Source: Algibacter sp. L1A34 (GTDB lineage: Bacteria > Bacteroidota > Bacteroidia > Flavobacteriales > Flavobacteriaceae). Taken from it: 64,000 nucleotides of DNA. The position numbers and the translations under genes are program-made. Shown here piece by piece: positions 35,546 through 52,210 of this stretch; within the stretch, counting starts at the first letter, position 1, and every line of letters begins with the position of its first letter. The notes beneath the pieces were generated by a model. The model did no database searches. It worked only from the letters and a program-made list of their open reading frames with translations, and was not told the origin of the DNA. The stretch is from assembly GCF_009796805.1 (NCBI RefSeq), contig NZ_CP047029.1, positions 2,428,501 to 2,492,500 on the forward strand. The letters are read 5' to 3'.

Positions 35546-35564
35546 TTCAAAAAAACATTTTCTT

Positions 35565-36536: not shown

Positions 36537-36587
36537 TACATTTTTACTTGTTTTTTACCACAGTACTTTGTTGGCAAATCGTATTTT

Positions 36588-37145: not shown

Positions 37146-37148
37146 ATG

Positions 37149-37607: not shown

Positions 37608-37745
37608 GTGCGCTAACGTTTACGTATAAGAATAGTGCGGTTTTGTGTGCGAGGATTTTCCGAAGGAAAATCAGACGTAACAAAAGTGCACTAACCTTTG
37701 ATTAAGCAACTAATTTAGCATTATTTTTATACATTGTTGGCAATA
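37608..37745. repeat. attC-like site 5
   Basis: R'' GTGCGCTAAC, outer arms GTATAAGAATAGTGCGG / GCATTATTTTTATAC, inner hairpin GATTTTCC-GAA-GGAAAATC, R' GTTGGCAATA. Confidence 0.88.
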
Positions 37746-37750
37746 GTTTT

Positions 37751-38359
37751 TTAATCCGAAATAACATCTCTTAATTCCAAAATATCTTCTCTAACTTTTT
37801 TGTCTTTTACCAAATTTAATGCCTTATTATTATACTTGTTGGAATTATTAAAATCATTCATTTTGTAATAAACATTAGCTATGTTGTAAAAAAAATATCC
37901 TTTTCGTTCAGAGTCCTGTTCATAATTCAATCCACTATTGTAAATAGCAATTGCTTTGTCAAATTCCTTATCCTTATTCAAAGCAACTCCATAATTCAAG
38001 TAAGTAAGTGAATATGTACTATCAATTTTAAGTGATTTTTCAAAATATTCAGAAGACTTTTTAAATTGAGATAATTCCGCTGTTTCATTTCCTAAAGCGT
38101 TAAGTATTATTTTATTATTTGGTTCGATAATATTTGCCTTTTTATATAAACTTTTAGCTTTTAAATGGTCGTTTTTTGCGCTTTTAGCAGATGCTAGGTC
38201 AAAAGTCAGAGAAGCGATTGAGTCTTTGATTTCGCCACTTTTAAATAGGTTCAAATAGTAGATTTCTGAATCTCCAGAATTTTTAGAAATTATTTTGTCA
38301 GTTTCGGTTTTGCAACTCAAAAATGTCAGAATTATAAATGCTAAGATTAGGTTTCTCAT
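37751..38359 (-). CDS. Cassette F: TPR-repeat lipoprotein, 202 aa
   Basis: I use the ATG at 38359; a TTG four codons earlier lies within the cassette end itself. The lipobox TFLSC follows a short hydrophobic core. About three tetratricopeptide repeats are visible: ALGNETAELSQFKKSSEYFE, LNYGVALNKDKEFDKAIAIY and YNIANVYYKMNDFNNSNKY. Such proteins act as docking modules. A paralogue with a frameshift lies in the cassette at 48.2-48.8 kb, so the same gene type entered the array twice or was duplicated and diverged. Confidence 0.82.
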   Translation of the reverse strand: MRNLILAFIILTFLSCKTETDKIISKNSGDSEIYYLNLFKSGEIKDSIASLTFDLASAKSAKNDHLKAKSLYKKANIIEPNNKIILNALGNETAELSQFKKSSEYFEKSLKIDSTYSLTYLNYGVALNKDKEFDKAIAIYNSGLNYEQDSERKGYFFYNIANVYYKMNDFNNSNKYNNKALNLVKDKKVREDILELRDVISD

Positions 38360-38362
38360 AAT

Positions 38363-38503
38363 TATTGCCAACGGTTACGTATAAGAATAGTGCGTAGTTT
38401 GAGTGCGAGGATTTTCCGAAGGAAAATCAGATGCAAGCTAACAAGCACTAACTTTAGATTGAGGAATAAACTTACGCATTATTTTTATACATTGTTGGCA
38501 TTT
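38363..38503. repeat. attC-like site 6
   Basis: R'' TATTGCCAAC, outer arms GTATAAGAATAGTGCG / CGCATTATTTTTATAC, inner hairpin GATTTTCC-GAA-GGAAAATC, R' GTTGGCATTT. Confidence 0.88.
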
Positions 38504-38509
38504 CGTTTT

Positions 38510-39028
38510 TTATTCTTTTTTTAAACTCCAATCTAAATCAAAATATTTCATTGTCGAATTCACATAGTTTTCAGGAACATATTTTGAAACATAGTTTTTA
38601 AAATATCTTTCCCTAAATCCTAATGCAAAAGAGTCTACAGATTGGTTTTCATAGAATTCAAAAGGTTTTACATTCGGAATTTTAATCCATTTCGAATTAG
38701 ATTTTCCGTTTATTAAATTCACCATTTTGAATGAATCCTTTTTTTGTTCCACTTGAAATTTCAGAGTGTCAATTATCTTTCGGTTAGAGAAAGGGTCTCT
38801 CAAATATTGAATCAGTGTGTCAGATTTGAATTCATAAGATGATAAATAGCTCAATCCACTTTGATAAACAACCACGAATCCTGTGTCAGTTATATGAGCT
38901 TCGTAGTATCTTTCTTTTTCCGTTGAGTCCAAATTGTACCAAACTCCGTTTAATTCAGATGTTCTCTTTTTAGAGCACCCAATTATGAGTGAAATCAGAA
39001 TTAGTAAATATGTTTGCGGTTTTGTCAT
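38510..39028 (-). CDS. Cassette G: lipoprotein, 172 aa
   Basis: The frame is open into the attC-like repeat, but MTKPQTYL at 39028 is the right start because it gives a lipoprotein signal with lipobox LIIGC directly after the cassette boundary. The mature part contains NGVWYNLDSTEKERYYEAHI, suggestive of a small beta-barrel or lipocalin-like start, and ends in an aromatic-rich helix (YFKNYVSKYVPENYV). Function is unknown. Confidence 0.75.
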   Translation of the reverse strand: MTKPQTYLLILISLIIGCSKKRTSELNGVWYNLDSTEKERYYEAHITDTGFVVVYQSGLSYLSSYEFKSDTLIQYLRDPFSNRKIIDTLKFQVEQKKDSFKMVNLINGKSNSKWIKIPNVKPFEFYENQSVDSFALGFRERYFKNYVSKYVPENYVNSTMKYFDLDWSLKKE

Positions 39029-39033
39029 AAATG

Positions 39034-39171
39034 AATGCCAACGTTTATGTATATGGAAAGTTGCGTGTTTGTGTGCGAGGATTTTCCGAAGGAAAATCAG
39101 ACGTAACAAACGTGCAACGACCTTTTGATTTAGCTAAAAATAGCAATTTTTTATATACGGTGTTACCTACA
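39034..39171. repeat. attC-like site 7
   Basis: R'' AATGCCAAC, outer arms GTATATGGAAAGTTGC / GCAATTTTTTATATAC (three G.T wobbles on the plus strand), inner hairpin GATTTTCC-GAA-GGAAAATC, R' GTTACCTACA. Confidence 0.88.
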
Positions 39172-39177
39172 GTATTT

Positions 39178-39753
39178 TTAATTCAGATTCGTGTATATTA
39201 AATCCAAGAATAATTTCCGATACATTATTTTTTGAAATTTATCTTCTGGAATTTTATTCAGCGCGTCAATTAAATATTCGCTATCAGTTTTTAAATCTCC
39301 GTAAGCCTCAAATTTGTTATAAGCTAATCCAAATTCAAATTGCCAACTTGACTTGTCTAAAATTTTTAGTTGTTCAAATAAATAACCATAGCAAGATAAA
39401 TGGGAATTAATCGGAAATAACAAATATGGGTCAAATCCTAAATCCGATTTAAGTTTCTCAAAAAACTCAGGCTCTATTTCTTTGCGACTTGCCTTTTTTA
39501 ATAATTCCGTATATCCGTTTTTGCTTATTTCAATCAGATATTTTTCTTGAATTAGTGAATTTTCTAATAAACTATGAATATTTTGTTTGTAAATCAGCTT
39601 TCCCTCAATCGGTCCAACTTCCGTAACGAGTCGATTATATTTGATTTCAGAGCATAATTCAAACTTTTCGTCCGCAATTAGGTCAGTCGTATTTTTAGTT
39701 GAACCACAAGCTGTGATTAAAGTCAGAATTATTATTTGAAGCAGTTTTTTCAA
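39178..39753 (-). CDS. Cassette H: lipoprotein, 191 aa, TTG start
   Basis: The signal MKKLLQIIILTLITAC ends in a lipobox. The start codon must be TTG, because no in-frame ATG exists between it and the attC-like repeat; the TTG lies 13 bp from the cassette end. The mature part is helical and acidic (LLENSLIQEKYLIEIS, KLKSDLGFDPYLLFP), with no recognised domain. The compact fit to the cassette end is typical of integron genes. Confidence 0.72.
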   Translation of the reverse strand: MKKLLQIIILTLITACGSTKNTTDLIADEKFELCSEIKYNRLVTEVGPIEGKLIYKQNIHSLLENSLIQEKYLIEISKNGYTELLKKASRKEIEPEFFEKLKSDLGFDPYLLFPINSHLSCYGYLFEQLKILDKSSWQFEFGLAYNKFEAYGDLKTDSEYLIDALNKIPEDKFQKIMYRKLFLDLIYTNLN

Positions 39754-39756
39754 TAT

Positions 39757-39895
39757 TGTAGGTAACGTTGCATGTATGGAAAGTTGCGTTTTCGAGTGCG
39801 AGGATTTTCCGCAGGAAAATCAGCCGCTATCGAAAAAAGCACTAACCAAAGTGTTTGCCTAAAATAGCAATTTTTTATACATATTGTTAGCGTGC
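39757..39895. repeat. attC-like site 8
   Basis: R'' TGTAGGTAAC, outer arms TGTATGGAAAGTTGC / GCAATTTTTTATACA, inner hairpin GATTTTCC-GCA-GGAAAATC, R' GTTAGCGTGC. Confidence 0.85.
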
Positions 39896-40219
39896 GTTTA
39901 CATATTTCACAAAAATACTTATCCGTTCTTGTTAAGTAATTTTTAAAACGTCCAGAAATTCAATCCGCCGTACAAGTTGCGCTTTGCTTTGATCAGAAAT
40001 TATAGATTTAGCTTTGCCGTGTAGAAAGTTAGTCCACCGCAACAGTTGCGTATTTAATGGTCAGAAATCGGTTGAGTGAGTTGTCCGTTGCGTAATCTAT
40101 TAAACATCTGTTTTCGCTTCGATTCCAAGAGCTAATAGTTCTTTAATTTTTTTGTTAAAATTAAATTTTTGCGAAAGAAAATAGGGGATAAGGAATTGCT
40201 TTTCAGAGTAGAGTGGAAT
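39896..40219. other. Cassette I: ORF-less cassette
   Basis: Bounded by GTTAGCGTGC (39886) and GCACGCTAA(T) (40220); the last base of the R'' box is T instead of C. It contains the extended palindrome CGCAACAGTTGCG (40038-40050) followed by ATGGTCAGAAATCGG and TTGAGTGAG, as in cassette B. The remaining sequence is diverged. No ORF is convincing. Confidence 0.65.
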
Positions 40220-40356
40220 GCACGCTAATGTTGTTGTATAAGCTTTGTTGCGTGGTTTAAGCAGTTAATTTAGTAAATAAAACACGAACGGCGAAATTCC
40301 GGAGGAATTTCCCAAGTGAGCCAAAACTAGCAATAAAGTTTATACGGTGTTAGCCA
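40220..40356. repeat. attC-like site 9
   Basis: R'' GCACGCTAAT (variant), outer arms TGTATAAGCTTTGTTGC / GCAATAAAGTTTATAC, inner hairpin GAAATTCC-GGA-GGAATTTC, R' GTTAGCCA. The changed AAC box may weaken this site. Confidence 0.82.
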
Positions 40357-40901
40357 TTGGCTTTTTCCGTTTCTATTTTATGTCCGATTTCAATTAAGAA
40401 TTCACGCATTAATTCATAAGTTTTGAAATCAGCATTGATATGATTAAACAATTCAGTTTCCATATATTCACAGCTTAAACAAATATTCAATTGTTGAACA
40501 AGATTTTCATTTTTGTCATAAAATAAAATTGCATCTCGATAAATTGGCGCACACATCCAATTCGGAATATCTTTTATTTCTGTTTTCAGAATCTCAATCA
40601 AGCGTTTTGATTTAGAATCTGTTTTTTCAATTCGGTTTATCTTTTCTGCTGAAAAATGAAATTGTCCTTTTTTATTGATAATTACTTGAGTGAAATTCAA
40701 TAATTCATTTAATTCAGACAAGCGATTTTTCTGCGTTTCATTTCCGCCATTTTTGGATTTTATATTAGCAAATTCAGATTCTAAAGATTTTATTTTTTCC
40801 TCAAACTTTTCTCCTCGCTGAAGAGAATAAGTTTCAAAGTATTCAAAATCTATATTTTCAATAAATTCCGATGATTTTTTATATGTGTAGTTCGGTTTCA
40901 T
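40350..40901 (-). CDS. Cassette J: hypothetical soluble protein, 183 aa
   Basis: No signal peptide or membrane segment. The N-terminal half is a charged helical region (EKFEEKIKSLESEFANIKS), and the C-terminal half has a CxxC motif in LNICLSCEYM and a conserved-looking WMCAPIYRDA. The stop codon TAA lies inside the cassette end itself (GGCTAAC), and the start is 7 bp before the other pairing box, so the gene fills its cassette completely. The family is not recognised. Confidence 0.7.
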   Translation of the reverse strand: MKPNYTYKKSSEFIENIDFEYFETYSLQRGEKFEEKIKSLESEFANIKSKNGGNETQKNRLSELNELLNFTQVIINKKGQFHFSAEKINRIEKTDSKSKRLIEILKTEIKDIPNWMCAPIYRDAILFYDKNENLVQQLNICLSCEYMETELFNHINADFKTYELMREFLIEIGHKIETEKANG

Positions 40902-40907
40902 TGCTTG

Positions 40908-41044
40908 TGGCTAACGGTCACGGCTATGGTTTCGTTGCGCGAAACATAGACGGTTTTTTTGTTAAGGCACTAAGATAGTAAAAATGGGAGGAATTTTCCA
41001 GCGGAAAATTCCAGCGCAATGAACTATAGGCAATGTTAGCGACA
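40908..41044. repeat. attC-like site 10 (divergent)
   Basis: R'' TGGCTAAC, outer arms CTATGGTTTCGTTGCGC / GCGCAATGAACTATAG with one unpaired T and G.T wobbles, inner hairpin GAATTTTCC-AGC-GGAAAATTC, R' GTTAGCGACA. Sequence differs from the other classes but the fold is the same. Confidence 0.82.
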
Positions 41045-41382
41045 GTTTATTGATTTAAGAATCAGAGAATCACGTTCAGCTTATCAGTCCGACATTGTTA
41101 AGCTGATTGACTGCGACAATCTCTAAGGCTCTAATTTGGCGGATTAGAAACAAGTCCAGCGTAATAGTTGGGTATTATAACTCCAGATTGGCCGTTCAGC
41201 TTGTCAGTCCGACGCAGTAGAGTAGGTGAGCGAGGCAGATCACTACGGAACTGAATTTGGCTGATGAGAAACGAGTCCGACGTCAAAGTTGTTTTTTAGG
41301 AGTTGAGTTTTTTGTTTTATTTGGCTTAAAATTCTAAAAAAAATCGCGAGAAAAGAAGCTGGCAAAAATTTGCGAAGTGGAT
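41045..41382. other. Cassette K: ORF-less cassette with internal repeats
   Basis: Bounded by GTTAGCGACA (41035) and TGTCGCTAAC (41383), a 10-bp perfect complement. Two imperfect ~90-bp direct repeats (41073-41162 and 41193-41283) each start CGTTCAGCTT and contain CAGTCCGAC and later GAAACxAGTCC. No ORF is convincing on either strand. A structured RNA is possible. Confidence 0.65.
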
Positions 41383-41519
41383 TGTCGCTAACGTTTATGT
41401 ATAAGAATAGTTGCGGGTTTGTATGCGAGGAATTTCCGAAGGAAATTCAGACGTTACAAACACGCAACGACCTTTGATTAAGCACTAAACCGCAATTATT
41501 TTTATACGGTGTTGCCATT
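41383..41519. repeat. attC-like site 11
   Basis: R'' TGTCGCTAAC, outer arms GTATAAGAATAGTTGCGG / CCGCAATTATTTTTATAC, inner hairpin GAATTTCC-GAA-GGAAATTC. The hairpin has base-pair changes that keep the stem (A-T for T-A). R' GTTGCCATT. Confidence 0.88.
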
Positions 41520-41682
41520 TCGTTGTTTTTCAGAGTTCAAATTATCCGATTAAACTCCGTTTTCCACTTTTCAGCGATTGAGTAAATTCATTCAGCGTTT
41601 TATTCCGCAATATTTTCAATTCCGAAACTAGCTAAATTCTACTCAAAATTCATTCAGCGTTTGAGCGATAATACAGTGTCTT

Positions 41683-41871
41683 TTATTCAGCCGTTTGCTT
41701 TTTATTCCTGAAAATTTTAAAAATTAATGAAGCATTAATAATAAATGCAGGAATTATAAAAACATCTTTAACTGTGTTTATTCCCAGAACGTCATATTGT
41801 AAAAATATCATCGAAAGGAAAATAATAATTGTCGAAATTATTAATCCAGTTTTTATGTAATTCATATTCAA
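41683..41871 (-). CDS. Cassette L: small membrane protein, 62 aa (duplicated)
   Basis: Two hydrophobic helices (GLIISTIIIFLSMIFL and DVFIIPAFIINASLIF) and a basic tail. The identical protein is encoded at 49088-49276, and the whole ~490-bp cassette is repeated there with only a few base changes. The cassette has non-coding flanks of ~170 bp on the 3' side and ~120 bp on the 5' side, so it may also hold a promoter. Function is unknown; small two-helix proteins include toxins, but no partner is visible. Confidence 0.7.
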   Translation of the reverse strand: MNMNYIKTGLIISTIIIFLSMIFLQYDVLGINTVKDVFIIPAFIINASLIFKIFRNKKQTAE

Positions 41872-42166
41872 TTTGTTTTAGTTAGATTTTCGTAAAGTTA
41901 TTCAATTCAGTTTTTTATTCAACGTTTTATTTGTCAAAAATTAGCTTTTTCTAAATTCAGATTTCCCTTTTCGAGTGCGTTACGCAATGAATGGCAACGT
42001 GTTTGTGTATGGTTAGTTGCGTGGTTAAGCAACTAAGTTAGTAAACTTTAACGAACCCGTGAATATTCCGCAGGAATATTCGCAAGTAAGCTCAATGAAG
42101 CAATTAAATATACACGGCTTAAGTTAGCATTTTAATAAAAACACTAAATTAAGGCCTAAAAATAAG

Positions 42167-42322
42167 AAAGCACAAAAGAGAGGAGTAAGGTTAATATACA
42201 CGCAGAAGCTTTAGACTTCGTCAACATTGAAAATCCCCTCTCTTTTCTACACAGATTTCGTACAGTTCTATGAGGCTTTTAGACCTCGATTTTAAGTCGT
42301 TGAAACTCGCGTAGATCGTCCT
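42167..42322 (+). ncRNA. Candidate IS110 bridge RNA, copy 2
   Basis: Same sequence as the copy 1 candidate. The loop sequence AATATACACG (42193) is identical over 10 bases to the target just left of this insertion (AATATACACG in 42108-42117), a longer match than at copy 1. CAACA at 42222 can pair with TGTTG on the right. Inferred from position and fold. Confidence 0.6.
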
Positions 42323-42341
42323 TTCAAAAAAACATTTTCTT

Positions 42342-43313
42342 ATGAATAAAGATATTAAATATTTTGGAATAGACATTAGTCATTTGGTGTTCGATGTCAC
42401 GGACTCTGATGGTAATTACTATCAGTTTAAAAACAATGAACTTGGCTTTAAAAAGTTCACGAAACTTTTAAATAATAAGAGTCATTGCGTTATGGAAGCC
42501 ACAGGCTATTATCATTATCAGTTAGCGTATCATTTGCTAGAATCTGGTATCAAAGTATCGGTTGAAAATCCATTGTCAGTAAAACGCTTTATACAGATGG
42601 GACTATCAAAAGTTAAGACAGATAAGAGCGATTCAAAACTTATTTGTGCTTACTCAGAGCAAGTAGAATTAAAGCTATGGAAAGGAAATTCTAAGGAAGA
42701 AATAGAATGTCTTCAAATCGTTAGAACCCTTTCTGTATATACAAAACAAAGCACTATGCTAAAAAACAAACTACATGGAGAAGCGGTTTTGGGAAATCCA
42801 AGTAAGCTTGTTGTAACGTCTTTAAAACGTAGTTTAAGACAACTAACAAAAGAGATGAAAACTTTGGAGGATAAGCTGTTAATATTAGTAAAACAATCAC
42901 ATCAAGATTTATTTACCCGTTTAAAAACCATTCCAGGTATAGGACCAAAAACAGCCATTATGTTAGTGGTATTAACAGGTGGATTTGATCGTTTTACGAG
43001 CGCAAGTGAACTTTGTAGTTACGCTGGCCTTACACCTATGATCCGGCAAAGTGGAAGTAGTGTAAAAGGGAGGCCACGAATAAGTAAAATGGGGAATCAA
43101 AAGCTTCGGAATTTATTATTTATGTGCAGTTTTAATGCGTGTAAATACAACAAAGCTTGCCGCGATCTTTATGAGCGAATCGTAGCGAAAGGAAAGAGCA
43201 AAAAATTAGCATTAATTGCCGTGTGTAATAAGCTACTAAAACAGGCTTTTGCACTAGCTAAATCAGGATTAATATATGATGGAAACTATAAAAGTACTTT
43301 AGTGAAAAATTAA
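42342..43313 (+). CDS. IS110-family transposase, copy 2, 323 aa
   Basis: Same protein as copy 1 except Thr in GPKTAIM, which is the more usual residue in this helix-hairpin-helix segment of the family. DEDD N-terminal and serine-containing C-terminal domains are intact. The gene begins 224 bp from the left end of the element. Confidence 0.95.
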   Translation: MNKDIKYFGIDISHLVFDVTDSDGNYYQFKNNELGFKKFTKLLNNKSHCVMEATGYYHYQLAYHLLESGIKVSVENPLSVKRFIQMGLSKVKTDKSDSKLICAYSEQVELKLWKGNSKEEIECLQIVRTLSVYTKQSTMLKNKLHGEAVLGNPSKLVVTSLKRSLRQLTKEMKTLEDKLLILVKQSHQDLFTRLKTIPGIGPKTAIMLVVLTGGFDRFTSASELCSYAGLTPMIRQSGSSVKGRPRISKMGNQKLRNLLFMCSFNACKYNKACRDLYERIVAKGKSKKLALIAVCNKLLKQAFALAKSGLIYDGNYKSTLVKN

Positions 43314-43362
43314 TACATTTTTACTTGTTTTTTACCACAGTACTTTGTTGTACGTAGTGTTT

Positions 43363-43827
43363 TTAAAATCCATCAAATACTTTGTCAACAGCATCACTTA
43401 TAACTTTTTCTTGACTTATCATATTTATATAGGTTTTATCCGATTTCAATTTTAATGTTTTTTCTATATTCGAAAAGCTCCAATCATAAGTTCCGCTAAA
43501 AATTTTATTTGTCAATTCAGATTCAGAGTTTGAGTGATTAGAGTTAATTTTCAATTTCCCTTTATCAAAAGTGAATTCTGTTTTTAATTTCTCTGATTCA
43601 AATCCAGGAAGAGTTATAGTTGAGTCAGCAACTTTAAAAGTCAAACTTTCAGAGTTTTCATATCCAGCATAAATAATTCGGATTGTTTGATTCAGAGTTT
43701 TTGGAAATACACTTTTTCCATCATAAGTCATTTCAGTTATAATCCAATTCCCATCCAGTTCGATTTGATTATTCGTATCACACGATAAAAAAGTCAAAAT
43801 CATTAATATAAGAATGAAGTTTCTCAT
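43363..43827 (-). CDS. Cassette M: lipocalin-like lipoprotein, 154 aa
   Basis: I use the ATG at 43827 (MRNFILIL) rather than an upstream GTG. The lipobox TFLSC follows the hydrophobic core. The mature start IELDGNWIITEMTYDGKSVFP resembles small lipocalin-like proteins of Bacteroidota, in which a GxW motif opens the barrel; later strands alternate hydrophobic residues (SLTFKVADSTITL, LKTEFTFDKGKLKI). Ligand and role are unknown. Confidence 0.75.
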   Translation of the reverse strand: MRNFILILMILTFLSCDTNNQIELDGNWIITEMTYDGKSVFPKTLNQTIRIIYAGYENSESLTFKVADSTITLPGFESEKLKTEFTFDKGKLKINSNHSNSESELTNKIFSGTYDWSFSNIEKTLKLKSDKTYINMISQEKVISDAVDKVFDGF

Positions 43828-43848
43828 TTGGTTCACATTACGTACAAC

Positions 43849-43976
43849 GGTTACGTATAAGAATAGTGCGTAGTTTGTGTGCGAGGATTTTCCGAAGGAA
43901 AATCAGATGCAACCAAACGCGCATTTACTCTTGGTTAGGTACTAAACTAAGCATTATTTTTATACAATGTTGGCAT
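43849..43976. repeat. attC-like site 13
   Basis: R'' TACGTACAAC, outer arms GTATAAGAATAGTGCG / GCATTATTTTTATAC, inner hairpin GATTTTCC-GAA-GGAAAATC, R' GTTGGCAT. Class of site 1. Confidence 0.88.
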
Positions 43977-44231
43977 GCGTGTTTTTTTTGTTGGACTTAT
44001 TTTACGACAGATATGCGTTTGAATTTAGAAAAGTGAGAGTTTTTTTGAGCATGAGTAAAGTCAGTCGCGCGTAATCTTTGAGTTTCGTTTGTCAAAAGTC
44101 AGATGTTTTGCGCAAGAGTAAAGTCAGTCGTAAGCAACAGTTGCGCTTTAAATGGTCAGAAGTCGGTTGAGTGAGTTTTTTAACAACTTTTAAGCTCGTT
44201 TATATATTTTTTTGAGCTGAGTGAGACATGA
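43977..44231. other. Cassette N: ORF-less cassette, close relative of cassette B
   Basis: Bounded by GTTGGCAT (43969) and ATGCCAAC (44232). The body follows cassette B closely (CGTG, TTGGACTTATTTTACGA, GAGCATGAGTAAAGTCAG, GCAACAGTTGC at 44134, GTCAGAAGTCGGTTGAG). The end boxes differ from B at one base, and both ends changed together (GTTAGC/GCTAAC against GTTGGC/GCCAAC). Confidence 0.7.
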
Positions 44232-44369
44232 ATGCCAACGTGATTGTGTATGGTTAGTTGCGTGATTTAAGGAACTAAGTTAGCAAATAAATCACAGATA
44301 GAATATTCCGCAGGAATGTTCGTAAGTAGGCTTAAAATAAGCAATTAATTATACACGGTGTTGTGGTGT
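44232..44369. repeat. attC-like site 14
   Basis: R'' ATGCCAAC, outer arms GTGTATGGTTAGTTGC / GCAATTAATTATACAC (three G.T wobbles), inner hairpin GAATATTCC-GCA-GGAATGTTC, R' GTTGTGGTG. Confidence 0.88.
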
Positions 44370-44387
44370 CGTTTTTTATTACTTCTA

Positions 44388-44945
44388 TTAATAATCAAAT
44401 TTATACGAATTAGTTGTATGTCCTTTTTTCCAATTTTTAAATTCAACGTTCACAATTACTTCTTGTGTTCCGTGAATTTTTTCTTTAAAATCAAAGTTTT
44501 CTTGATATGAAATTCCATATTTATTTAGGACTTCATCAATTTTGTTTTTTTCCAATTCCGCTTTTTTATATTCTCCTCTATATTTATTCAGTTTAGAGTA
44601 AGCAGCTGCCAGAAATGAAAATCCAGCTGCAATCATTCCAATTTTCACATACCATAAATACAAGCTAAATATTTTCCAGTCAGATAAAAAGTACCCAAGA
44701 AGTATTAAAAGAAAACCAATAATTATTGTGCCGTAAAAAGTCAGATGTGTTGACTTTTGGTTTCTGCGGATTATTTCCAATTCGAGATTTGCAATTTCTA
44801 ATTTTTCTTGAAATTTTTTGTCAAGTGTAATTTTTGAGCAAATATTATTAAAATCAGGTCTTTTATTGGTCAAATTACAAGTCAATCCTTTTTCAAGACT
44901 CGTTATTTGGTTTTCGCATAAATCACAATGTCGTGAAAAATTCAT
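44388..44945 (-). CDS. Cassette O: zinc-ribbon membrane protein, 185 aa
   Basis: The N-terminus has a Cys cluster (CDLCENQ near 8-11, C23, C36) typical of a small zinc ribbon. A helical segment leads to two membrane helices (FYGTIIIGFLLILLGYFL and VKIGMIAAGFSFLAAAY), then a charged coiled coil (YKKAELEKNKIDEVLNKYG). The C-terminus is beta-rich. The family is not recognised. The start is ~58 bp from the pairing box. Confidence 0.72.
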   Translation of the reverse strand: MNFSRHCDLCENQITSLEKGLTCNLTNKRPDFNNICSKITLDKKFQEKLEIANLELEIIRRNQKSTHLTFYGTIIIGFLLILLGYFLSDWKIFSLYLWYVKIGMIAAGFSFLAAAYSKLNKYRGEYKKAELEKNKIDEVLNKYGISYQENFDFKEKIHGTQEVIVNVEFKNWKKGHTTNSYKFDY

Positions 44946-45002
44946 TAAAATGTCAGTTCGGTTTTAGTCAGTTTTTGATTCCAGCGTTCGTTTTGGTAAA
45001 TG

Positions 45003-45142
45003 CACCACAACGTTTATGTATATAATTCAGTAAGGAATTTAAAATTAACTGATTTTCAGATGTTTAACTGTCTTTTTTAAACGCGCGATTTACTCAAATT
45101 GATTACTTAACTCCTTATTGATTATATACTGTGTTGTATGTC
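45003..45142. repeat. attC-like site 15 (divergent, no central TTCC hairpin)
   Basis: R'' CACCACAAC, outer arms GTATATAATTCAGTAAGGA / TCCTTATTGATTATATAC with one unpaired T, R' GTTGTATG. The usual TTCC/GGAA hairpin is absent, but the outer stem is among the longest in the array. Confidence 0.78.
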
Positions 45143-45205
45143 AGGTGTTTTTATTTTCAGATTGTAAGTTAATTCTTTTTTATAACTTGTTCAAAAATAT
45201 AATTT

Positions 45206-45580
45206 ATGTCAGGTATTAAAAAAGATAAAATTCTAAAACTGCTTTTAAAAGTCTATGATGACAATAGTTATACAACGTCAAGAACAACAGATGGTGGTAA
45301 AACATTAAGTGTTGAGGATATCCATCGAAAAACTAATTATAGTTTAGATTCAGTTAATTTACTCATAGGTGCTCTCCACTATAACGACTATATTAAAAAA
45401 TTCCGATTACACGGTAAAGGCGAAACTGATTTTTGGGGAATAACTGATAAAGGACGAAATGCTATATCCGAAAACAACTTCGTTTGGTATTATAAGACTG
45501 ATAACATATTCAAAGTTATTGGGTTAGCACTCGCTTTATTTGGAACTCTAAATTCCATATTTCATTTTACAGATAGATAG
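45206..45580 (+). CDS. Cassette P: winged-helix protein with one membrane helix, 124 aa (reverse orientation)
   Basis: Unlike almost all cassette genes this one reads on the plus strand. Residues ~1-90 look like a winged helix (DKILKLLLKVYDD, VEDIHRKTNYSLDSVNLLIG, FWGITDKGRNAISEN), followed by one hydrophobic segment (VIGLALALFGTLNSIF) at the C-terminus. A membrane-tethered DNA-binding protein is possible. Its 3' end overlaps a short minus-strand ORF by 14 bp. Confidence 0.72.
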   Translation: MSGIKKDKILKLLLKVYDDNSYTTSRTTDGGKTLSVEDIHRKTNYSLDSVNLLIGALHYNDYIKKFRLHGKGETDFWGITDKGRNAISENNFVWYYKTDNIFKVIGLALALFGTLNSIFHFTDR

Positions 45581-45701
45581 AGAGTATAACTGAAATTACT
45601 ATAAATATTGGTATAGCTATATCTGTTATTTTTCCAATTAATACCATTCTCTTTTCTGTTCGTTCTTCCTTTTCTATAAACTGTTTTAATTCTTCTGTCA
45701 T
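45567..45701 (-). CDS. Possible small membrane protein, 44 aa
   Basis: An ORF from ATG at 45701 encodes a charged start (MTEELKQFIEKEERTEKR) and one hydrophobic helix (ITDIAIPIFIVISVIL). It converges with the plus-strand gene and overlaps its end. It has the orientation of most cassette genes. The ribosome site is weak, so expression is uncertain. Confidence 0.4.
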   Translation of the reverse strand: MTEELKQFIEKEERTEKRMVLIGKITDIAIPIFIVISVILSIYL

Positions 45702-45851
45702 ATTCTTATTTCATTTCGTGCGTTATATGCCGCACAGTTAGTAATTCCGATTGAGTGAGCTTTTCACGTACTACTTGTCAGTCATACGTAACAGTTGCGT
45801 TGTGCTTTGGTCAGTCAGATTTTTATTATATTAGTAAAAAATATATTTTCA

Positions 45852-46298
45852 ATGTCAATCAATCATAATTTAGAAAACTTAACTAGCGAACAAAACCAAA
45901 ACTTAGGGTTAGCTAATACTCTTTTGGATAATCTTAATACCATCAAACCTTCTAATTTGAGAAAGTCTTCATTAAAATATGACGGTAATAAGTTTACTAT
46001 TGTGCAGACAGGTTTTAACCATAAGTTTTTAATAGATGATATTCATTTAGCTATAAAAGGTGATTATCAAGCTCATAAAGACTTTATTTTAAATTCTGTA
46101 CTAAAAGAGATAGACGATTATAATTTCAGTGATAAGAGTATGTCAAAGTATGGTAATATGAAAGTTATGTTAGAATCTATTATGAAATATTACGGTTTTG
46201 ACTGTAGTGTTAGATACCCTTTATATTCTAATAATGAAGATTTTAAAGGCTTTTTAAAAACCCTGAACATTTCTATAGAAAAAGTAACTCTTAATTAA
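45852..46298 (+). CDS. Cassette P: hypothetical protein, 148 aa (reverse orientation)
   Basis: I use the ATG at 45852 (MSINHNLENL) instead of an upstream TTG. The product is soluble, with an N-terminal helix and a mixed alpha/beta body (YDGNKFTIVQTGFNHKFLIDD). No domain is recognised. The frame ends at TTAATTAAGG. GTTATATGC at 45722 is complementary at 8 of 9 bases to GCATACAAC at 46526, so this gene could be a separate cassette fused to the previous one after loss of the repeat between them. Confidence 0.65.
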   Translation: MSINHNLENLTSEQNQNLGLANTLLDNLNTIKPSNLRKSSLKYDGNKFTIVQTGFNHKFLIDDIHLAIKGDYQAHKDFILNSVLKEIDDYNFSDKSMSKYGNMKVMLESIMKYYGFDCSVRYPLYSNNEDFKGFLKTLNISIEKVTLN

Positions 46299-46526
46299 GG
46301 CTCTGTATTTATTTGTTTCAAAGTATTTATGTAGATACACTTATAATCTACTTCACATACACCTTTTTCTGGATGTTCAATATATACTAATTTTCCAAGC
46401 ATAAATCTTGATAAATCATCTCCAGTTATTTTTACAAGGCTTGGTCCAAGTTCAGTATTCATAAGTCATTGTTATTTCAACAACTCTTTTATATACTTCT
46501 ATACTGTATGAGTGGGTTAGTACTTG
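46299..46526. other. Remainder of cassette P, possible broken minus-strand ORF
   Basis: On the minus strand a frame ending at 46295 reads MLGKLVYIEHPEKGVCEVDY and onward for about 35 codons. An apparent better start ~20 codons earlier is in another frame, as if one base had been added. It may be a decayed small gene. Nothing else is recognised. Confidence 0.35.
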
Positions 46527-46666
46527 CATACAACGGTTTTGTGTATGGTTAGTTGCGTGTTTAAGCAACTAATTTAGTAAACAAAAACGAACGCGAGAAA
46601 ATTCCGAAGGAATTTTCCAAATAAGCACTTGCCAAAGCAATTAATTATACACGGTGTTGCCAGTAG
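46526..46666. repeat. attC-like site 16
   Basis: R'' GCATACAAC, outer arms GTGTATGGTTAGTTGCG / GCAATTAATTATACAC, inner hairpin GAAAATTCC-GAA-GGAATTTTC, R' GTTGCCAGTA. CATACAAC pairs with GTTGTATG at 45133. Confidence 0.88.
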
Positions 46667-46669
46667 TTT

Positions 46670-47260
46670 TTATTCCTTTTCGGTCAGTTTTATTTCAATC
46701 GAACTTTCGGGAAAACCTATCAGTTTATTTTCAAAGATATACATTACTCTATCTCTCATTATTAAACTATCCTTTTCTATTTTATAATCATAGTTATTTA
46801 GAAACCGTAATGATAATTTCAGACTGTCTCCAAGTTTTTCATATTCTCCATAATATAGAGTCAAAATAGAATCTTTAGAATGTTTCTTTATTTCTCTTAA
46901 ACTTACTCCATCAGGATTTTTTTCAATGTGTATTATAAAACTTCTGTTATCGTTCGTGAAACTAAATTCCGAATAATCGAATGGATGATTTTCCAACCAA
47001 GAATTCCAAAAGAAAGTAAAAAGTAGGGGACAAATAATTCCGTTAATAAGGAACAAAGCTGAATATCCTTTTTTTATGAAGTATAGAATTATTGCAATCA
47101 ATAAGTTTATTCCGATAGTTATAAATCTAGGGAATGTAATTCCATTAGACATAAATATATTCGGCTCAATATCAGCAACCCATATTTTCAGTAGAAATAT
47201 GTCAATTAATAAAATCAGAACTCCAATTCCGATAAATAATTTTTTTTCTGATTTCGTCAT
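46670..47260 (-). CDS. Cassette Q: membrane protein, 196 aa
   Basis: I use the ATG giving MTKSEKKL rather than the TTG two codons upstream. Three hydrophobic helices fill the N-terminal half (LFIGIGVLILLIDIFLLKIW, FITIGINLLIAIILYFI, ALFLINGIICPLLFTFFW). A soluble beta-rich tail follows (FSFTNDNRSFIIHIEKN, DSLKLSLRFLNNYDYKIEKD). The family is not recognised. The start is close to the pairing box at 47270. Confidence 0.75.
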   Translation of the reverse strand: MTKSEKKLFIGIGVLILLIDIFLLKIWVADIEPNIFMSNGITFPRFITIGINLLIAIILYFIKKGYSALFLINGIICPLLFTFFWNSWLENHPFDYSEFSFTNDNRSFIIHIEKNPDGVSLREIKKHSKDSILTLYYGEYEKLGDSLKLSLRFLNNYDYKIEKDSLIMRDRVMYIFENKLIGFPESSIEIKLTEKE

Positions 47261-47269
47261 TCTCAAATT

Positions 47270-47406
47270 ACTGGCAACGTTGATGTATAAGAATAGTTGC
47301 GGGTTTGTATGCGAGGATTTTCCGAAGGAAAATCAGATGTAGCAAACACGCAACTACCTTTTTTTTAGCACTAAACCGCAATTATTTTTATACGGTGTTA
47401 GGCACA
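47270..47406. repeat. attC-like site 17
   Basis: R'' TACTGGCAAC, outer arms GTATAAGAATAGTTGCGG / CCGCAATTATTTTTATAC, inner hairpin GATTTTCC-GAA-GGAAAATC, R' GTTAGGCACA. Confidence 0.88.
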
Positions 47407-47410
47407 GTTT

Positions 47411-48004
47411 TTATTCTTTTTTTATTTCTCCATTTTCGTTAAACAGAGTTGTTTTTATTAAAATTCCGTCATTGTCATAAACAGAAACTTCTTTAATTTT
47501 TCCGTTTTGATAATATCTTTTTAATTCTCCGATTACAAGTCCGTTTTTAAATTCCGCTTTCAGCCGAATTTTTCCGTTTGAGTAATAATCAGTTTCAATT
47601 CCGTCACAAACCTTTTCGCAATTCATAAACTTATAGTTAGGAATTATTCCAAGTTTTTTAAGTTGTTCCCGACTTGTGCCTTTTTTATAGGAAACATTTG
47701 TCTTTTTTATATATTCTTCGATTCTCGGTTTAACTAAAGTGTCTGAATTTATTAGTTTGTCAATTACAATTTTACGTACTTCTCCAATTTCGGTTGCGAC
47801 AAGTTTATACTCTCCTTTAGTCAGAAGAATTATTGTTCCGTCAAAGTCCGATATATTATACTTGGTTCCGTCCTTTTCAAGATGATAGTAATCACTTCTT
47901 TCAATTTCGTTTGAGCAAGAATCTTTCAAAAATAGATTGAATTTAATTTCTTGACTAAATCCAGAAATGGTAGAAAAAAGTAATATTAAAATCGTTAATT
48001 TCAT
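47411..48004 (-). CDS. Cassette R: exported MORN/YwqK-like repeat protein, 197 aa
   Basis: The signal peptide MKLTILILLFSTISGFSQ is clear. The C-terminal third has MORN/YwqK-type repeats (GIETDYYSNGKIRLKAEF, GELKRYYQNGKIKEVSVY, DGILIKTTLFNENG). The N-terminal part looks like a small carboxypeptidase-regulatory-like beta sandwich (FDGTIILLTKGEYKLVATE). Databases often label such repeats as antitoxin of a YwqK family, but no toxin partner lies in this cassette. The role is more likely in the envelope. Confidence 0.75.
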   Translation of the reverse strand: MKLTILILLFSTISGFSQEIKFNLFLKDSCSNEIERSDYYHLEKDGTKYNISDFDGTIILLTKGEYKLVATEIGEVRKIVIDKLINSDTLVKPRIEEYIKKTNVSYKKGTSREQLKKLGIIPNYKFMNCEKVCDGIETDYYSNGKIRLKAEFKNGLVIGELKRYYQNGKIKEVSVYDNDGILIKTTLFNENGEIKKE

Positions 48005-48017
48005 TGGTCTGTCAAAT

Positions 48018-48157
48018 TGTGCCTAACGGTTACGTATATGGAAAGTTGCGTGTTTGTATGCGAGGATTTTCCGAAGGAAAATCAGCAGCTAGCAAACAAA
48101 GCAACTAAGATTGGTTAAGCTAAAAATAGCAATTTTTTATATACAATGTTGGCAGTA
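48018..48157. repeat. attC-like site 18
   Basis: R'' TGTGCCTAAC, outer arms GTATATGGAAAGTTGC / GCAATTTTTTATATAC, inner hairpin GATTTTCC-GAA-GGAAAATC, R' GTTGGCAGTA. Same boxes as the cassette A start, although the cassettes are unrelated. Confidence 0.88.
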
Positions 48158-48158
48158 G

Positions 48159-48784
48159 TTATTTTTCATTTATTGTTTCTCTAAATTTCAGAATCTCTTT
48201 TTTCAAAACTTCGTCGTTAACCAATTGAATTGATTTATTGATGTTAATTTTAGCATTGCTATCGTCATACAGTTGATAATATGCTCGTGACATATTATAA
48301 TGAAAATAACCTCTTTTTTCTCCACTTCTTTTCAAGACTAATTCCTTTGTTGTATAGGTTCGATTGCTTTATTAAATTCATCGTTTCTTGCTCTTGAAAA
48401 GCCATAATTCAAATAGGTTATTGCATCAAGGCTATCAATCCGCAAAGATTGTTCAAAGTATTCATAGGACTTATCAAAGTCTTTAAGGTCAGCACTTACA
48501 TTCCCTAAAGCATTAATTATAATTGTATTATTAGGTTCTAGTTTATTTGCGGATTCATAAAATCCTCTAGAGCTTTTAAAGTTCAGTTGGGAACTTTGCT
48601 CAATACCTTTGTCAAAGTCAAAAGCAGCTATTGAGTCTTTAATCAGTCCATTTTCAAACGAGTTTTTATAAAACACATTTGTATTTCCGTCTTTTGTTGT
48701 AACAATTTTTTCTTTGTCAGAATAGATATCATTCTTACAGCTCAAAATGAAAATAAAAATTATTAATATGTACAGGTGTTTCAT
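48159..48784 (-). pseudogene. TPR lipoprotein, frameshifted paralogue of cassette F
   Basis: From the ATG at 48784 (MKHLYILI, lipobox ILSC) the frame runs through TPR-like repeats similar to the 37.8-kb protein (LNYGFSRARNDEFNKAIEP), then stops at ~48338. In another frame the match continues: KRSGEKRGYFHYNMSRAYYQ, then a helix ending INEK with a stop at 48159. One base has been gained or lost near 48350. A truncated 148-aa product remains possible. A sequencing error would look the same. Confidence 0.8.
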
Positions 48785-48787
48785 AAT

Positions 48788-48924
48788 TACTGCCAACGTT
48801 TATGTATAAGAATAGTTGCGGGTTTGTATGCGAAGATTTTCCGAAGGAAAATCAGACGTTACAAACACGCAACGACCTTTGATTAAGCACTAAACCGCAA
48901 TTATTTTTATACGGTGTTGCCATT
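48788..48924. repeat. attC-like site 19
   Basis: R'' TACTGCCAAC, outer arms GTATAAGAATAGTTGCGG / CCGCAATTATTTTTATAC, inner hairpin GATTTTCC-GAA-GGAAAATC, R' GTTGCCATT. Nearly the same as site 11, which precedes the other copy of this cassette. Confidence 0.88.
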
Positions 48925-49087
48925 TCGTTGTTTTTCAGAGTTCAAATTATCCGATTAAACTCCGTTTTCCACTTTTCAGCGATTGAGTAAATTCATTCAG
49001 CGTTTTATTCCGCAATATTTTCAATTCCGAAACTAGCTAAATTCTACTCAAAATTCATTCAGCGTTTGAGTGATTATACAGAGTCTT

Positions 49088-49276
49088 TTATTCAGCCGTT
49101 TGCTTTTTATTCCTGAAAATTTTAAAAATTAATGAAGCATTAATAATAAATGCAGGAATTATAAAAACATCTTTAACTGTGTTTATTCCCAGAACGTCAT
49201 ATTGTAAAAATATCATCGAAAGGAAAATAATAATTGTCGAAATTATTAATCCAGTTTTTATGTAATTCATATTCAA
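49088..49276 (-). CDS. Cassette S: small membrane protein, 62 aa (second copy)
   Basis: The protein is identical to that at 41683-41871, with two membrane helices and a basic tail. The surrounding cassette (48916-49403) matches 41511-41998 apart from a few substitutions and a small length change near the gene end. Identical coding sequence with slightly changed flanks suggests recent duplication, possibly by cassette excision and re-insertion near the recombinase. Confidence 0.7.
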   Translation of the reverse strand: MNMNYIKTGLIISTIIIFLSMIFLQYDVLGINTVKDVFIIPAFIINASLIFKIFRNKKQTAE

Positions 49277-49394
49277 TTTGTTTTAGTTAGATTTTCGTAA
49301 AGTTATTCAATTCAGTTTTTTATTCAACGTTTTATTTGTCAAAAATTAGCTTTTTCTAAATTCAGCTTTCCCTTTTCGAGTGCGTTACGCAATG

Positions 49395-49533
49395 AATGGC
49401 AACGTGATTGTGTATGGTTAGTTGCGTGGTTAAGCAACTAATTTAGTAAATAAATCACAGATAGAATATTCCGCAGGAATGTTCGTAAGTCGGCAGTGAA
49501 CCAAGCAATTAATTATACACGGTGTTACCAACT
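49395..49533. repeat. attC-like site 20 (closest to the recombinase)
   Basis: R'' AATGGCAAC, outer arms GTGTATGGTTAGTTGC / GCAATTAATTATACAC, inner hairpin GAATATTCC-GCA-GGAATGTTC, R' GTTACCAAC. Confidence 0.88.
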
Positions 49534-50181
49534 GTGTTTTCTATCTGGGATTCTATAATTTATCGAAATCCTATCTTCAATTTTGACTAACTTCGTTTTT
49601 GCAGGTTTTGGTGTTTGGTTATCCTCTTTTTGATGCGGTTCTGATTCATCAAATTCAATCAGTTCAATATTGGTCTCTGGAATTATATAAACTTGCGAAT
49701 AATCTGTATCGATATCTAATCGACCAAATCTTTTTATATTTTTAAAATAAATAGTCAATTGTTGAATACCATTGTGTCTCATTAAAGTTCCTATTTCAAA
49801 TGTTTTTGAGCTACTTGGATGGTCATTAATTACATAACCATATTTATCAGATTGTTTACTCAAGTCTTTAGTCAGATATAGAGTATCACTAATTTTAATT
49901 TCAATATTTTCCTTTATTCCATAATATAGAAGTTGAATAACATTTGATGTGTCATTTTTAATCGCTATTTGCTTTTCTAATGCATTCAGTTTTATTTTTT
50001 CTTTTCTTTTTTGAGTGAAACTTTCCCATTTTTTAGAGTTAATAGTATCTGAGAGGCTAACAATTCGAGCTGGTTTAAAATCCTCTATTCTAGTTATTTC
50101 TTTATATTCTTTATATTCTTTATTCTGTCCAAATAAATTAATTTGAACAAGAACAATCGATATAAATATAAGTTTTTTCAT
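49525..50181 (-). CDS. Cassette T: exported protein, 218 aa (first cassette)
   Basis: I use the ATG at 50181 (MKKLIFISIVLVQINLFGQ, a clear signal peptide). An open frame runs 31 codons further upstream into the candidate attI but has no such signal. The body has basic and helical parts (ESFTQKRKEKIKLNALEKQ) and beta strands (RHNGIQQLTIYFKNIKRFG). The stop TAA lies inside the cassette end (TTGGTAAC). It is the cassette nearest the recombinase, hence the latest one in an integron model. The family is not recognised. Confidence 0.75.
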   Translation of the reverse strand: MKKLIFISIVLVQINLFGQNKEYKEYKEITRIEDFKPARIVSLSDTINSKKWESFTQKRKEKIKLNALEKQIAIKNDTSNVIQLLYYGIKENIEIKISDTLYLTKDLSKQSDKYGYVINDHPSSSKTFEIGTLMRHNGIQQLTIYFKNIKRFGRLDIDTDYSQVYIIPETNIELIEFDESEPHQKEDNQTPKPAKTKLVKIEDRISINYRIPDRKHSW

Positions 50182-50183
50182 TT

Positions 50184-50343
50184 TTGGTAACGTATTTTTC
50201 TTAAAATTCAGAAAGCGATAAATTCGGATTCGGAACAGGTTTTTGCTTTTCACGAACCACATTGTTGGTAACAATTGTATATAGTTAGTACTAACTATAT
50301 ATCTATTATATGTAGTACTAACTATATATCTATTATATGCGCA
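50184..50343. other. Candidate attI region with tandem 27-bp repeat
   Basis: The region lies between the first cassette and the recombinase stop. A 27-bp unit starting TAGTACTAACTATATATC occurs twice in perfect tandem (50286-50312, 50313-50339). TTGGTAAC occurs at the cassette boundary (50184-50191) and again at 50265-50272 inside a short palindrome. There is no hairpin of the attC-like type. Direct repeats beside an insertion point resemble the accessory recombinase sites of attI. Confidence 0.65.
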
Positions 50344-51471
50344 CTAAGATAGTAAATCTTTAATTTCTGTAAAGGAACTTGTAGCAACATGTGTATAAAT
50401 TTCTGTAGTTTTAGTAGAGTTATGTCCTAAAAGTAATTGAATGTAGCGAATATCTGTACCACTTTCCAGTAAATGCGTGGCAAAACTATGTCTTAACATA
50501 TGGGGAGTAACTCTTTGTTTAATACCTGCATTTTTGGCAGATTTAACAACAATTTGTAATACACTAGAGCTACTGTATGGATTGCCAGGAATGGGATTTT
50601 CAAACAAATATGTTTTAGGTCTGTAAATTTTAAAATACGTTCTCATGTCTTCCAGAACACTTTTGTTGAGAACTGTATAGCGGTCTTTATTACCTTTAGC
50701 TTGTTCAACTCTAATAACCATTCTTTTACTATCAATGTCTTTTATTTTTAATTGTAAGAGTTCATTTCTTCGTAAGCCAGAAGAGTACAATAAGCTTATA
50801 ATACATTTATGTTTTATGTTGTTCGTAAAGTTAATTATTGTAATTATTTCTTCTTTCGATAATACTTTTGGCAATTTAGATTCTTTTCTAGGTCTTTCAA
50901 TAGAGTAGAACCGGTTAGGCATTCCTAAAACCATTTCGTAATAAAATTTAATAGCATTGATAGACATATTAATATATGAATTAGACTTGTCTTCTTTAAT
51001 TAGTTTTTGAAGATAGAGCCTAATATCATTTTCGTTAATACTAAATAATTCCCTTTGTTTATAATGATTAATAAATTTCTCAAAACTATGAACATAGTTT
51101 TTTACTGTGCTATTCGAATATTTTTTTAGTTCTAATTTTTGTAGAAATTCATCAGGACATGTTCTAAAATTTTTTTTTATAGATCGTTCTCTAAACCAAG
51201 ATACATCCGTAGTTTTGTTATCACTATTAAGTTTTCTGTCTTTAAAAAAGTAGTTGCAATTAACCCAGGCAACACCCTTAAATTTTTCAAAAACCAAACT
51301 GACATTAGATTTGTTGTTTAGAATATATACCATATTAAACTCTTTACTCCATTTAGGGTTTGGTAATTCTTTAATTAGAGCTTGAATGACTTTATCTGAG
51401 TTGAATTGTAAGCCAATACATTGTTTTTCTTTAATAAAAAGATGTTTCAATGTGATATGTTTATTTAGCAT
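50344..51471 (-). CDS. Xer/IntI-like tyrosine recombinase at the array end, 375 aa
   Basis: This is probably the recombinase that moves the cassettes. A ~100-residue N-terminal extension is followed by a SAM-like core-binding domain (~103-190). The catalytic domain has R234 (SGLRRNEL), K259 (QAKGNKDR), H324 and R327 (PHMLRHSF), H350 (LLGHNS) and nucleophile Y359 (TEIYTHV). Only ~58 residues separate GNKDR from PHMLRH, against about 100 in IntI1, so the extra IntI segment that clamps unpaired attC bases is missing. It reads in the same direction as the cassettes. A plain Xer-type integrase of the island is the alternative. Confidence 0.88.
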   Translation of the reverse strand: MLNKHITLKHLFIKEKQCIGLQFNSDKVIQALIKELPNPKWSKEFNMVYILNNKSNVSLVFEKFKGVAWVNCNYFFKDRKLNSDNKTTDVSWFRERSIKKNFRTCPDEFLQKLELKKYSNSTVKNYVHSFEKFINHYKQRELFSINENDIRLYLQKLIKEDKSNSYINMSINAIKFYYEMVLGMPNRFYSIERPRKESKLPKVLSKEEIITIINFTNNIKHKCIISLLYSSGLRRNELLQLKIKDIDSKRMVIRVEQAKGNKDRYTVLNKSVLEDMRTYFKIYRPKTYLFENPIPGNPYSSSSVLQIVVKSAKNAGIKQRVTPHMLRHSFATHLLESGTDIRYIQLLLGHNSTKTTEIYTHVATSSFTEIKDLLS

Positions 51472-51562: not shown

Positions 51563-51943
51563 ATGAAATTAAAGAAAAAAGAATGTTTAGCTTGTGGAAA
51601 AGAATTGATTGGACGTTCGGATAAAAGGTTTTGTGATTTGCATTGCAAAAGTTCTTATCATTATCGTAAATCTTTAGAAGAAACTCCTAGGTTTTATAGT
51701 AAAGTAGATAATCAGTTAAAACTGAATCGAAAAATTCTTAAGAACTACAATAAATCTGGAAAAGCAACTATACGAGCATTGACAGTTTTAGGTTTAGGTT
51801 TTAATCCTAGCTTTTTTACACATTATTGGAAAAATGCAAAAGGGGATGTTTATCTTTTTGTTTATGAATTTGGCTTTTTGAAAAAGAAAGAAAATAATGT
51901 TGAAAAATACATTTTAATAAAATGGCAGGAGTATATGGAGTAA
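51563..51943 (+). CDS. Zinc-finger-type small protein, 126 aa
   Basis: The N-terminus carries CLACGKEL and RFCDLHCKSSYHYRK, a four-cysteine/His zinc ribbon like that of the protein at 29899. The rest is basic and helical, with RALTVLGLGFNPSFFTHYW and a C-terminal beta segment (GDVYLFVYEFGFLKK). It is divergent from the recombinase gene and shares its promoter region. Similar small proteins beside both tyrosine recombinases of this island suggest an accessory or regulatory role; the function is unknown. Confidence 0.65.
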   Translation: MKLKKKECLACGKELIGRSDKRFCDLHCKSSYHYRKSLEETPRFYSKVDNQLKLNRKILKNYNKSGKATIRALTVLGLGFNPSFFTHYWKNAKGDVYLFVYEFGFLKKKENNVEKYILIKWQEYME

Positions 51944-52073
51944 TAAAATAATCTATTATATTTTATTCAAATATTTATACAACAAGTGAACATAAAGTTG
52001 AACACAATTCTACAAAACAATAGCACTAAACACCAGTAAAATGGTTTAAAAAATGAAGGTCTCGGAGATCATC

Positions 52074-52110
52074 ACCCAAAGGTCACTGGTTCGATTCCAG
52101 TTCCCGCTAC
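52074..52110 (+). repeat. tRNA 3'-half fragment: putative right attachment site of the island
   Basis: ACCCAAAGGTCACTGG, TTCGATTCCAG and TTCCCGCTAC match the left copy at 27738-27774 with two differences. The anticodon part is diverged. Together the two copies define a ~24.3-kb island with an integrase gene beside the left copy. Neither end has a full tRNA gene. Confidence 0.78.
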
Positions 52111-52210
52111 TAGAAAAATTAAGCCTTTACAGGAATTTGAGAGCTTTTTTATGCCTTGGGCACAACATTTCAAGGATCAAGTAATGTTATAGGAGGCAAC
52201 TCAATTTATG

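Follow-up and report, generated by a model that had tools for sequence, protein, structure and literature searches.

A probable chromosomal integron beside a tyrosine recombinase without the IntI additional domain

In the 64,000-nucleotide stretch of DNA analysed here (the window), a tyrosine recombinase gene lies beside a long array of hairpin repeats, raising the question of whether a locus of this kind can be an integron when its recombinase is not a canonical integron integrase. The I2 part of IntI has been called necessary for cassette capture and single-strand recombination, and the innovation that created integrons (PMC7790495), and surveys recognise IntI by this I2 or additional domain (PMC2426708, PMC9668308). 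Because detection relies on that domain, surveys report almost no integrons in Bacteroidetes; IntegronFinder 2 found one complete example among 22,301 chromosomes, in Salinibacter ruber (PMC9024848). A search of open-access PMC returned no paper describing integrons in Flavobacteriaceae, nor one on any integron whose integrase is domain-less. The locus described here is very probably a chromosomal integron, with the recombinase as integrase, a G|TTRRRY site as attI and repeats of about 137 nt as attC. This reading is based on the matching of cassette ends, the covariation of the sites with its bottom-strand bias, the strand and 3′ position of the sites, and their co-occurrence with the recombinase across genomes.

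The recombinase and its position are as follows.

50344–51471, minus strand: tyrosine recombinase (integrase) without the IntI additional domain, 375 aa (from the ORF, domain matches, residue conservation and an AlphaFold2 model)

The protein carries a SAM-like core-binding domain (residues 107–183) and a Phage_integrase domain (residues 202–364). All of its catalytic residues had been predicted to be present, and the R-K-H-R-H-Y set of tyrosine recombinases is indeed complete: R234, K259, R327, H350 and Y359 are invariant among 69 relatives, and H324 is kept in at least 90% of them. The original prediction also held that the segment preceding the HxLRH motif is too short for the IntI domain, and HMLRH (H324) follows KGNKDR (R264) at a distance of 59 residues. 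The spacing between the KG..R and HxLRH motifs is 64–65 residues in nearly all measurable relatives. It is longer in E. coli XerC (68) and XerD (72) and reaches 106 in both IntI1 and the seven measurable Bacteroidota IntI, which puts the shortfall relative to IntI at about 42 residues. In the AlphaFold2 model (pLDDT 88.9), no additional helix is seen between patch II and patch III, the location of the additional domain (I2 helix) in IntI. In keeping with its description as not a canonical IntI, the recombinase scores 207 bits with the integron-integrase model TIGR02249, below the cut-off of 265. It is also under the cut-offs of the XerC and XerD models. The best-scoring named model, and the only Xer model whose cut-off (220) is exceeded, is NF040815 (XerA; 231 bits), which NCBI names 'site-specific tyrosine recombinase/integron integrase'.

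As a statement of lineage, the earlier label 'Xer-like' did not survive phylogenetic analysis. In two trees the Xer proteins (XerC/XerD/XerA) separate strongly from the recombinase, with support of 100/96 and 100/99 for the split from XerA, and the grouping with ordinary XerC/D that had been named as a possible refutation was not found. IntI is monophyletic (100/100) on a long branch, with the window enzyme outside. The array recombinases adjoin IntI, their nearest group, along with IS91-linked and solitary enzymes, and a single clade of array-linked, domain-less enzymes apart from IntI gave an AU p value of 0.135. Foldseek with the recombinase model returned the IntI4-attC complex 2a3v first and XerA next, while the highest VIA-align scores were for a XerA chain (Z 24.5) and IntI4 (Z 22.0). 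XerC-like and XerD-like proteins are encoded by other genes of the host (L004, L001).

The recombinase does lie next to the array, as predicted, although the arrangement needs correcting: the array is on its 3′ side and has the same reading direction, i.e., the minus strand. A covariance model of the sites (R1, from 48 sites of many genera) finds 21 of them in the window; they span 32615 to 49532, without exception on the minus strand, and are accompanied by about 20 cassettes. Read on that strand, the sites are hairpin repeats of about 137 nt with the form RYYYAAC...G|TTRRRY. Rfam, at its gathering threshold, gave no match in the whole window. The sites found by R1, and the cassette features that accompany them, are given below.

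49395–49532, minus strand: attC-like site 1, adjoining attI (106.2 bits)
48789–48924, minus strand: attC-like site 2
48019–48156, minus strand: attC-like site 3
47270–47405, minus strand: attC-like site 4
46526–46664, minus strand: attC-like site 5
45003–45141, minus strand: attC-like site 6, divergent (62 bits)
44231–44368, minus strand: attC-like site 7
43840–43977, minus strand: attC-like site 8
41990–42131, minus strand: attC-like site 9, then an IS110-type insertion
41384–41519, minus strand: attC-like site 10
40907–41043, minus strand: attC-like site 11
40221–40357, minus strand: attC-like site 12
39758–39894, minus strand: attC-like site 13
39034–39170, minus strand: attC-like site 14
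38364–38502, minus strand: attC-like site 15
37609–37744, minus strand: attC-like site 16
37149–37286, minus strand: attC-like site 17
35212–35354, minus strand: attC-like site 18, with a second IS110-type insertion
33815–33950, minus strand: attC-like site 19
33412–33549, minus strand: attC-like site 20
32615–32705, minus strand: attC-like site 21, truncated by an adjoining IS3-type element
49525–50274, minus strand: first-cassette ORF, without a Pfam match
48338–48796, minus strand: cassette ORF with TPR repeats
47411–48004, minus strand: cassette ORF with MORN repeats
41384–41990, minus strand: cassette with a second copy at 48789–49394 (98% identity in the first 300 nt, followed by shorter exact repeats)

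The duplicated cassette fixes the side of exchange, since the repeated unit consists of a site and the region to its right on the plus-strand map; this gives the gene-then-site order of canonical cassettes. Two IS110-type elements (323 aa transposase; 35355–36536 and 42132–43313), with 98% identity over their first 300 nt, have the same insertion point inside two of the attC-like sites, suggesting that this type of element targets the folded site. The IS3-type element (31243–32597) has two ORFs and cuts off the last site of the array.

Between the recombinase gene and the first cassette lies the predicted attI.

50260–50301, minus strand: attI, identified by sequence; 24-bp palindrome (50278–50301), CAATT, G|TTACC, with the exchange point between plus-strand positions 50271 and 50272
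50305–50328, minus strand: second, imperfect copy of the attI palindrome

The palindrome directly follows the recombinase stop codon, placing a candidate attI with a G|TTRRRY junction beside the integrase gene. The first cassette begins at the G|TTACC, with which its R′′ box (TTGGTAAC) pairs. Palindromes with arms of at least 10 nt occur 3′ of the recombinase in 70 of 114 clade A loci, against 2 of 137 shuffled sequences. They comprise 86 distinct sequences overall, usually with GTT[AG] 3–7 nt after.

R1 sites number 96 in the whole genome, and two further clusters stand out. The one at about 3.90–3.94 Mb (G000:C1:3898297-3917061, L172) has more than 30 sites beside a second recombinase (L003/L172), which shares 44% identity with the window enzyme and has a different N-terminal extension; its attI core, TATACAATT|GTTGTGG, is without a palindrome. 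This region is a second integron of the genome. The third cluster, at about 4.29–4.32 Mb (G000:C1:4288134-4323258), has around 28 sites with no close recombinase seen nearby, and is a CALIN of the same site type. A different kind of repeat was seen at L113:14425-16441, where at least 12 tandem 141-bp repeats lie downstream of an integrase of the same family; no R1-type sites were found there.

If the units of the array are cassettes, then the two ends of each should match. Because they belong to one cassette, the hexamer that follows GTT in one site and the hexamer that precedes AAC in the next are complementary. Across the 51 contributing loci this match is perfect (6/6) in 204 of 252 consecutive site pairs, compared to 1.9% of 2527 non-consecutive pairs. 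For pairing within sites, each of 250 sites was joined to the start of its own cassette, as in the circular form; these sites are related by descent, and the counts are not independent events. R positions 4–9 pair in 219–229 of the 250, and in 71–126 when partners are dealt anew. At R8 the figure is 227, with 72 expected, and all four pair types are represented. The L arms covary as well. Descent alone is insufficient to produce this pattern, since the perfectly matching hexamers include 91 distinct sequences.

The same 250 sites have a strong preference for one strand, the bottom strand folding better in 237 and the top strand in one. This is because A.C combinations on the gene strand at L07, L08 and L12 become G.T pairs on the bottom strand, while G.T on the gene strand is nearly absent at these positions. 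In bottom-strand folds, about 10 bp form the R stem and 16 bp the L stem, and the spacer is asymmetric, its 5′ arm having 2–3 more unpaired nt. The sites therefore have the features of attC arrays, i.e., RYYYAAC...GTTRRRY ends, imperfect inverted repeats and a favoured bottom strand, and the units have those of cassettes: one gene with a 3′ attC, a single direction, and ends that are complementary in the circular form. The longest ORF is on the recombinase strand in 207 of the 250 cassettes and on the opposite strand in 3, while 40 have none of at least 80 aa. Cassettes are not shared between relatives, even at 93% integrase identity, and the platform is conserved. Selection for a folded bottom strand would produce this site pattern, from which we infer that the enzyme uses the folded form.

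An alternative, which we consider unlikely, is that the enzyme carries out Xer-like recombination of double-stranded core sites and that the hairpins serve another purpose, e.g., termination or expression control. In its favour, the enzyme is without the I2 helix with which IntI acts on folded attC, attI in clade A has the perfect palindrome expected of a duplex core site, and XerA (NF040815) is the best named match; such a scheme, however, leaves unexplained both the complementarity over about 9 nt of cassette ends lying some 500–700 bp apart, in 91 different hexamers, and the 237:1 strand bias in folding. Sites of this kind also have a bearing on published work. IntI1 was able to recombine the bottom strand of one attC (attC2) of Polaribacter phage P12002L but not the top strand (PMC9892861). 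This lytic phage carries eight R1-type sites (L220, 30904–39715), several with matching cassette ends, in a region with methyltransferase genes, and the attC recombined by IntI1 is probably of the R1 type. Phages may spread these cassettes; no relatives of the recombinase were found in viral contigs.

If the recombinase acts as the integrase, it should be linked to the sites in related genomes. A survey of 136 loci (80 from named genomes, all Bacteroidota, plus loci from whole genomes) gave 475 sites, of which 467 are on the recombinase strand; 469 lie downstream of the gene and 6 upstream, over search lengths of 855 and 830 kb, respectively. Sites were present in 64 of the 70 loci having at least 4 kb downstream: 43/47 at 55% or more identity to the window recombinase (P0001), 9/9 at 40–55% and 12/14 below 40%. 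Contigs ended within 600 nt of the gene on its 3′ side in 23 of the 80 loci, and on its 5′ side in two. In other classes, relatives L199-L203, L213 and L216 have sites with matching cassette ends. Some relatives outside the window's family are solitary recombinases, so linkage to arrays is not universal in the wider clade.

Co-occurrence was assessed in 199 genomes of the window's own family (probably Flavobacteriaceae, judging from named relatives), nearly all of different genera. Relatives of the recombinase (E<1e-40) occur in 126 and attC-like sites in 175; both are found in 124, the recombinase only in 2, sites only in 51 and neither in 22 (Fisher p = 3.7e-9). The predicted tie between recombinase and array is upheld by these surveys, and the contrary outcome, a family found mainly without arrays, does not apply within the window's own family. 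Canonical IntI (TIGR02249) was found in 0 of the 199 genomes; across the phylum, matches to the IntI model occur in 84 of 296 genomes.

That the recombinase is an unrelated neighbour, with a canonical integrase or host Xer moving the cassettes in trans, is quite improbable. The 51 genomes with sites but no relative at E<1e-40 would be compatible with it, as would the ability of IntI1 to recombine a phage attC that is probably of R1 type (PMC9892861). Against this stand the absence of TIGR02249 IntI from all 199 genomes, the tight 3′ linkage on the same strand in dozens of genera, and the conserved attI at the recombinase stop codon. In the site-only genomes themselves, the lack of a close recombinase makes it possible that an enzyme acts in trans. 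The idea that the array represents dispersed repeats or tandem gene duplications instead of recombined cassettes can be dismissed, for although the sites are repetitive and have IS110-type elements inserted in them, each unit has different genes, close relatives have no cassettes in common, and cassette ends match far more often than those of non-neighbours, which contradicts it.

Two further features distinguish the recombinase and its surroundings.

51232–51471, minus strand: N-terminal extension of the recombinase, residues 1–80, a beta-beta-alpha-beta-beta-alpha-beta domain (predicted structure, pLDDT 94)
51563–51943, plus strand: divergent partner gene P0002, 126 aa, treble-clef-like (CxxC...CxxxC), conserved upstream of the recombinase

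The predicted N-terminal extension of about 100 residues is real, consisting of a compact folded domain (residues 1–73; pLDDT 94 when folded alone) and a linker, with the core-binding domain starting at residue 107. It had been proposed as a possible way of recognising folded sites. As a general requirement for reading the folded site it is ruled out, since array-linked relatives of 305 aa lack it: L186, L187 and L188, with arrays of 15, 8 and 5 sites. The best structural likeness of the extension is to the XPB damage-recognition domain, which occupies the top seven rows at Z 5.7–6.7, below a trustworthy level, as is the SMARCAL1 HARP domain (Z 4.0). Foldseek and VIA-align together gave weak likeness to XPB and HARP domains and nothing stronger. 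Because of the weak XPB likeness, an auxiliary role is possible for the modelled domain.

P0002 lies upstream of the recombinase in 114/121 close, 8/10 intermediate and 1/14 distant relatives, mostly at a distance of 90–120 nt. No family name was found for it, and our guess is that it is a regulator or accessory factor. The short intergenic region between the two genes has repeated CGTAT/ATACG-type motifs in many relatives, perhaps operators. Further along the window, the sequence at 52060–52115 (GGTTCGATTCC...) is similar to a tRNA gene in its 3′ part, and may mark where an integrated island ends; ARAGORN did not find a full tRNA.

Taken as an integron, the locus would work as follows. A free circular cassette would bring both ends of the site together, with R′′ and R′ pairing over about 9–10 bp. 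In its folded state the bottom strand would have a small asymmetric spacer between an R-box stem and a 16-bp L-box stem, and the enzyme would join it to attI at G|TT in the manner of IntI. Judged from the sequences, recombination of the cassettes is probably carried out by the window recombinase, on a substrate that would be single-stranded. Recognition without the I2 helix would then use other features, such as the conserved bottom-strand G.T pairs, the spacer and further protein contacts, perhaps with the N-terminal domain where present.

The locus is very probably an integron by its working but is not an IntI integron by membership, as it has neither the defining domain nor a place in the IntI clade. 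It appears that an integron-type element run by a recombinase without the supposedly essential I2 part is present in most of the marine flavobacterial genera sampled. If this is true, it may be necessary to revise the rule for integron recognition of folded DNA. Should the enzyme work on these sites, integrons would be much more common than has been thought, living relatives could be used to test the origin of folded-site recombination, and there would be a new pool of cassette genes. One tentative scenario, to which we give the lesser weight, is that cassette capture on folded single-stranded sites did not need I2 and predates it, with the domain-less array integrases being older and widespread in Bacteroidota, and IntI a lineage from within them that later gained I2.

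With class 1 and sedentary chromosomal integrons the locus shares the G|TTRRRY exchange point, the RYYYAAC...GTTRRRY sites, the cassette anatomy, the gene orientation, the integrase-attI-array order as a unit and the bottom-strand folding. It differs from them in that the integrase is without the I2/additional domain (64–65 versus 106 residues between patches) and its gene points towards the array, and in the palindromic attI, seen in most close relatives, and the conserved divergent P0002. In the Treponema denticola integron, intI is upstream of attI and reads towards it. The same holds for archaeal integrons (PMC9668308). In both, as in the window, attI directly follows the integrase gene and shares its direction, but their integrases have the additional domain, unlike the window enzyme. 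Archaeal XerA (NF040815) shares the compact catalytic domain and is the best named model, but is separated from the window enzyme by tree. We know of no XerA that runs cassette arrays. CALINs, including that of Polaribacter phage P12002L (PMC9892861), have sites that match R1, with bottom-strand IntI1 activity on one P12002L site; no integrase has been identified for them, and an enzyme of the window type is the likely one.
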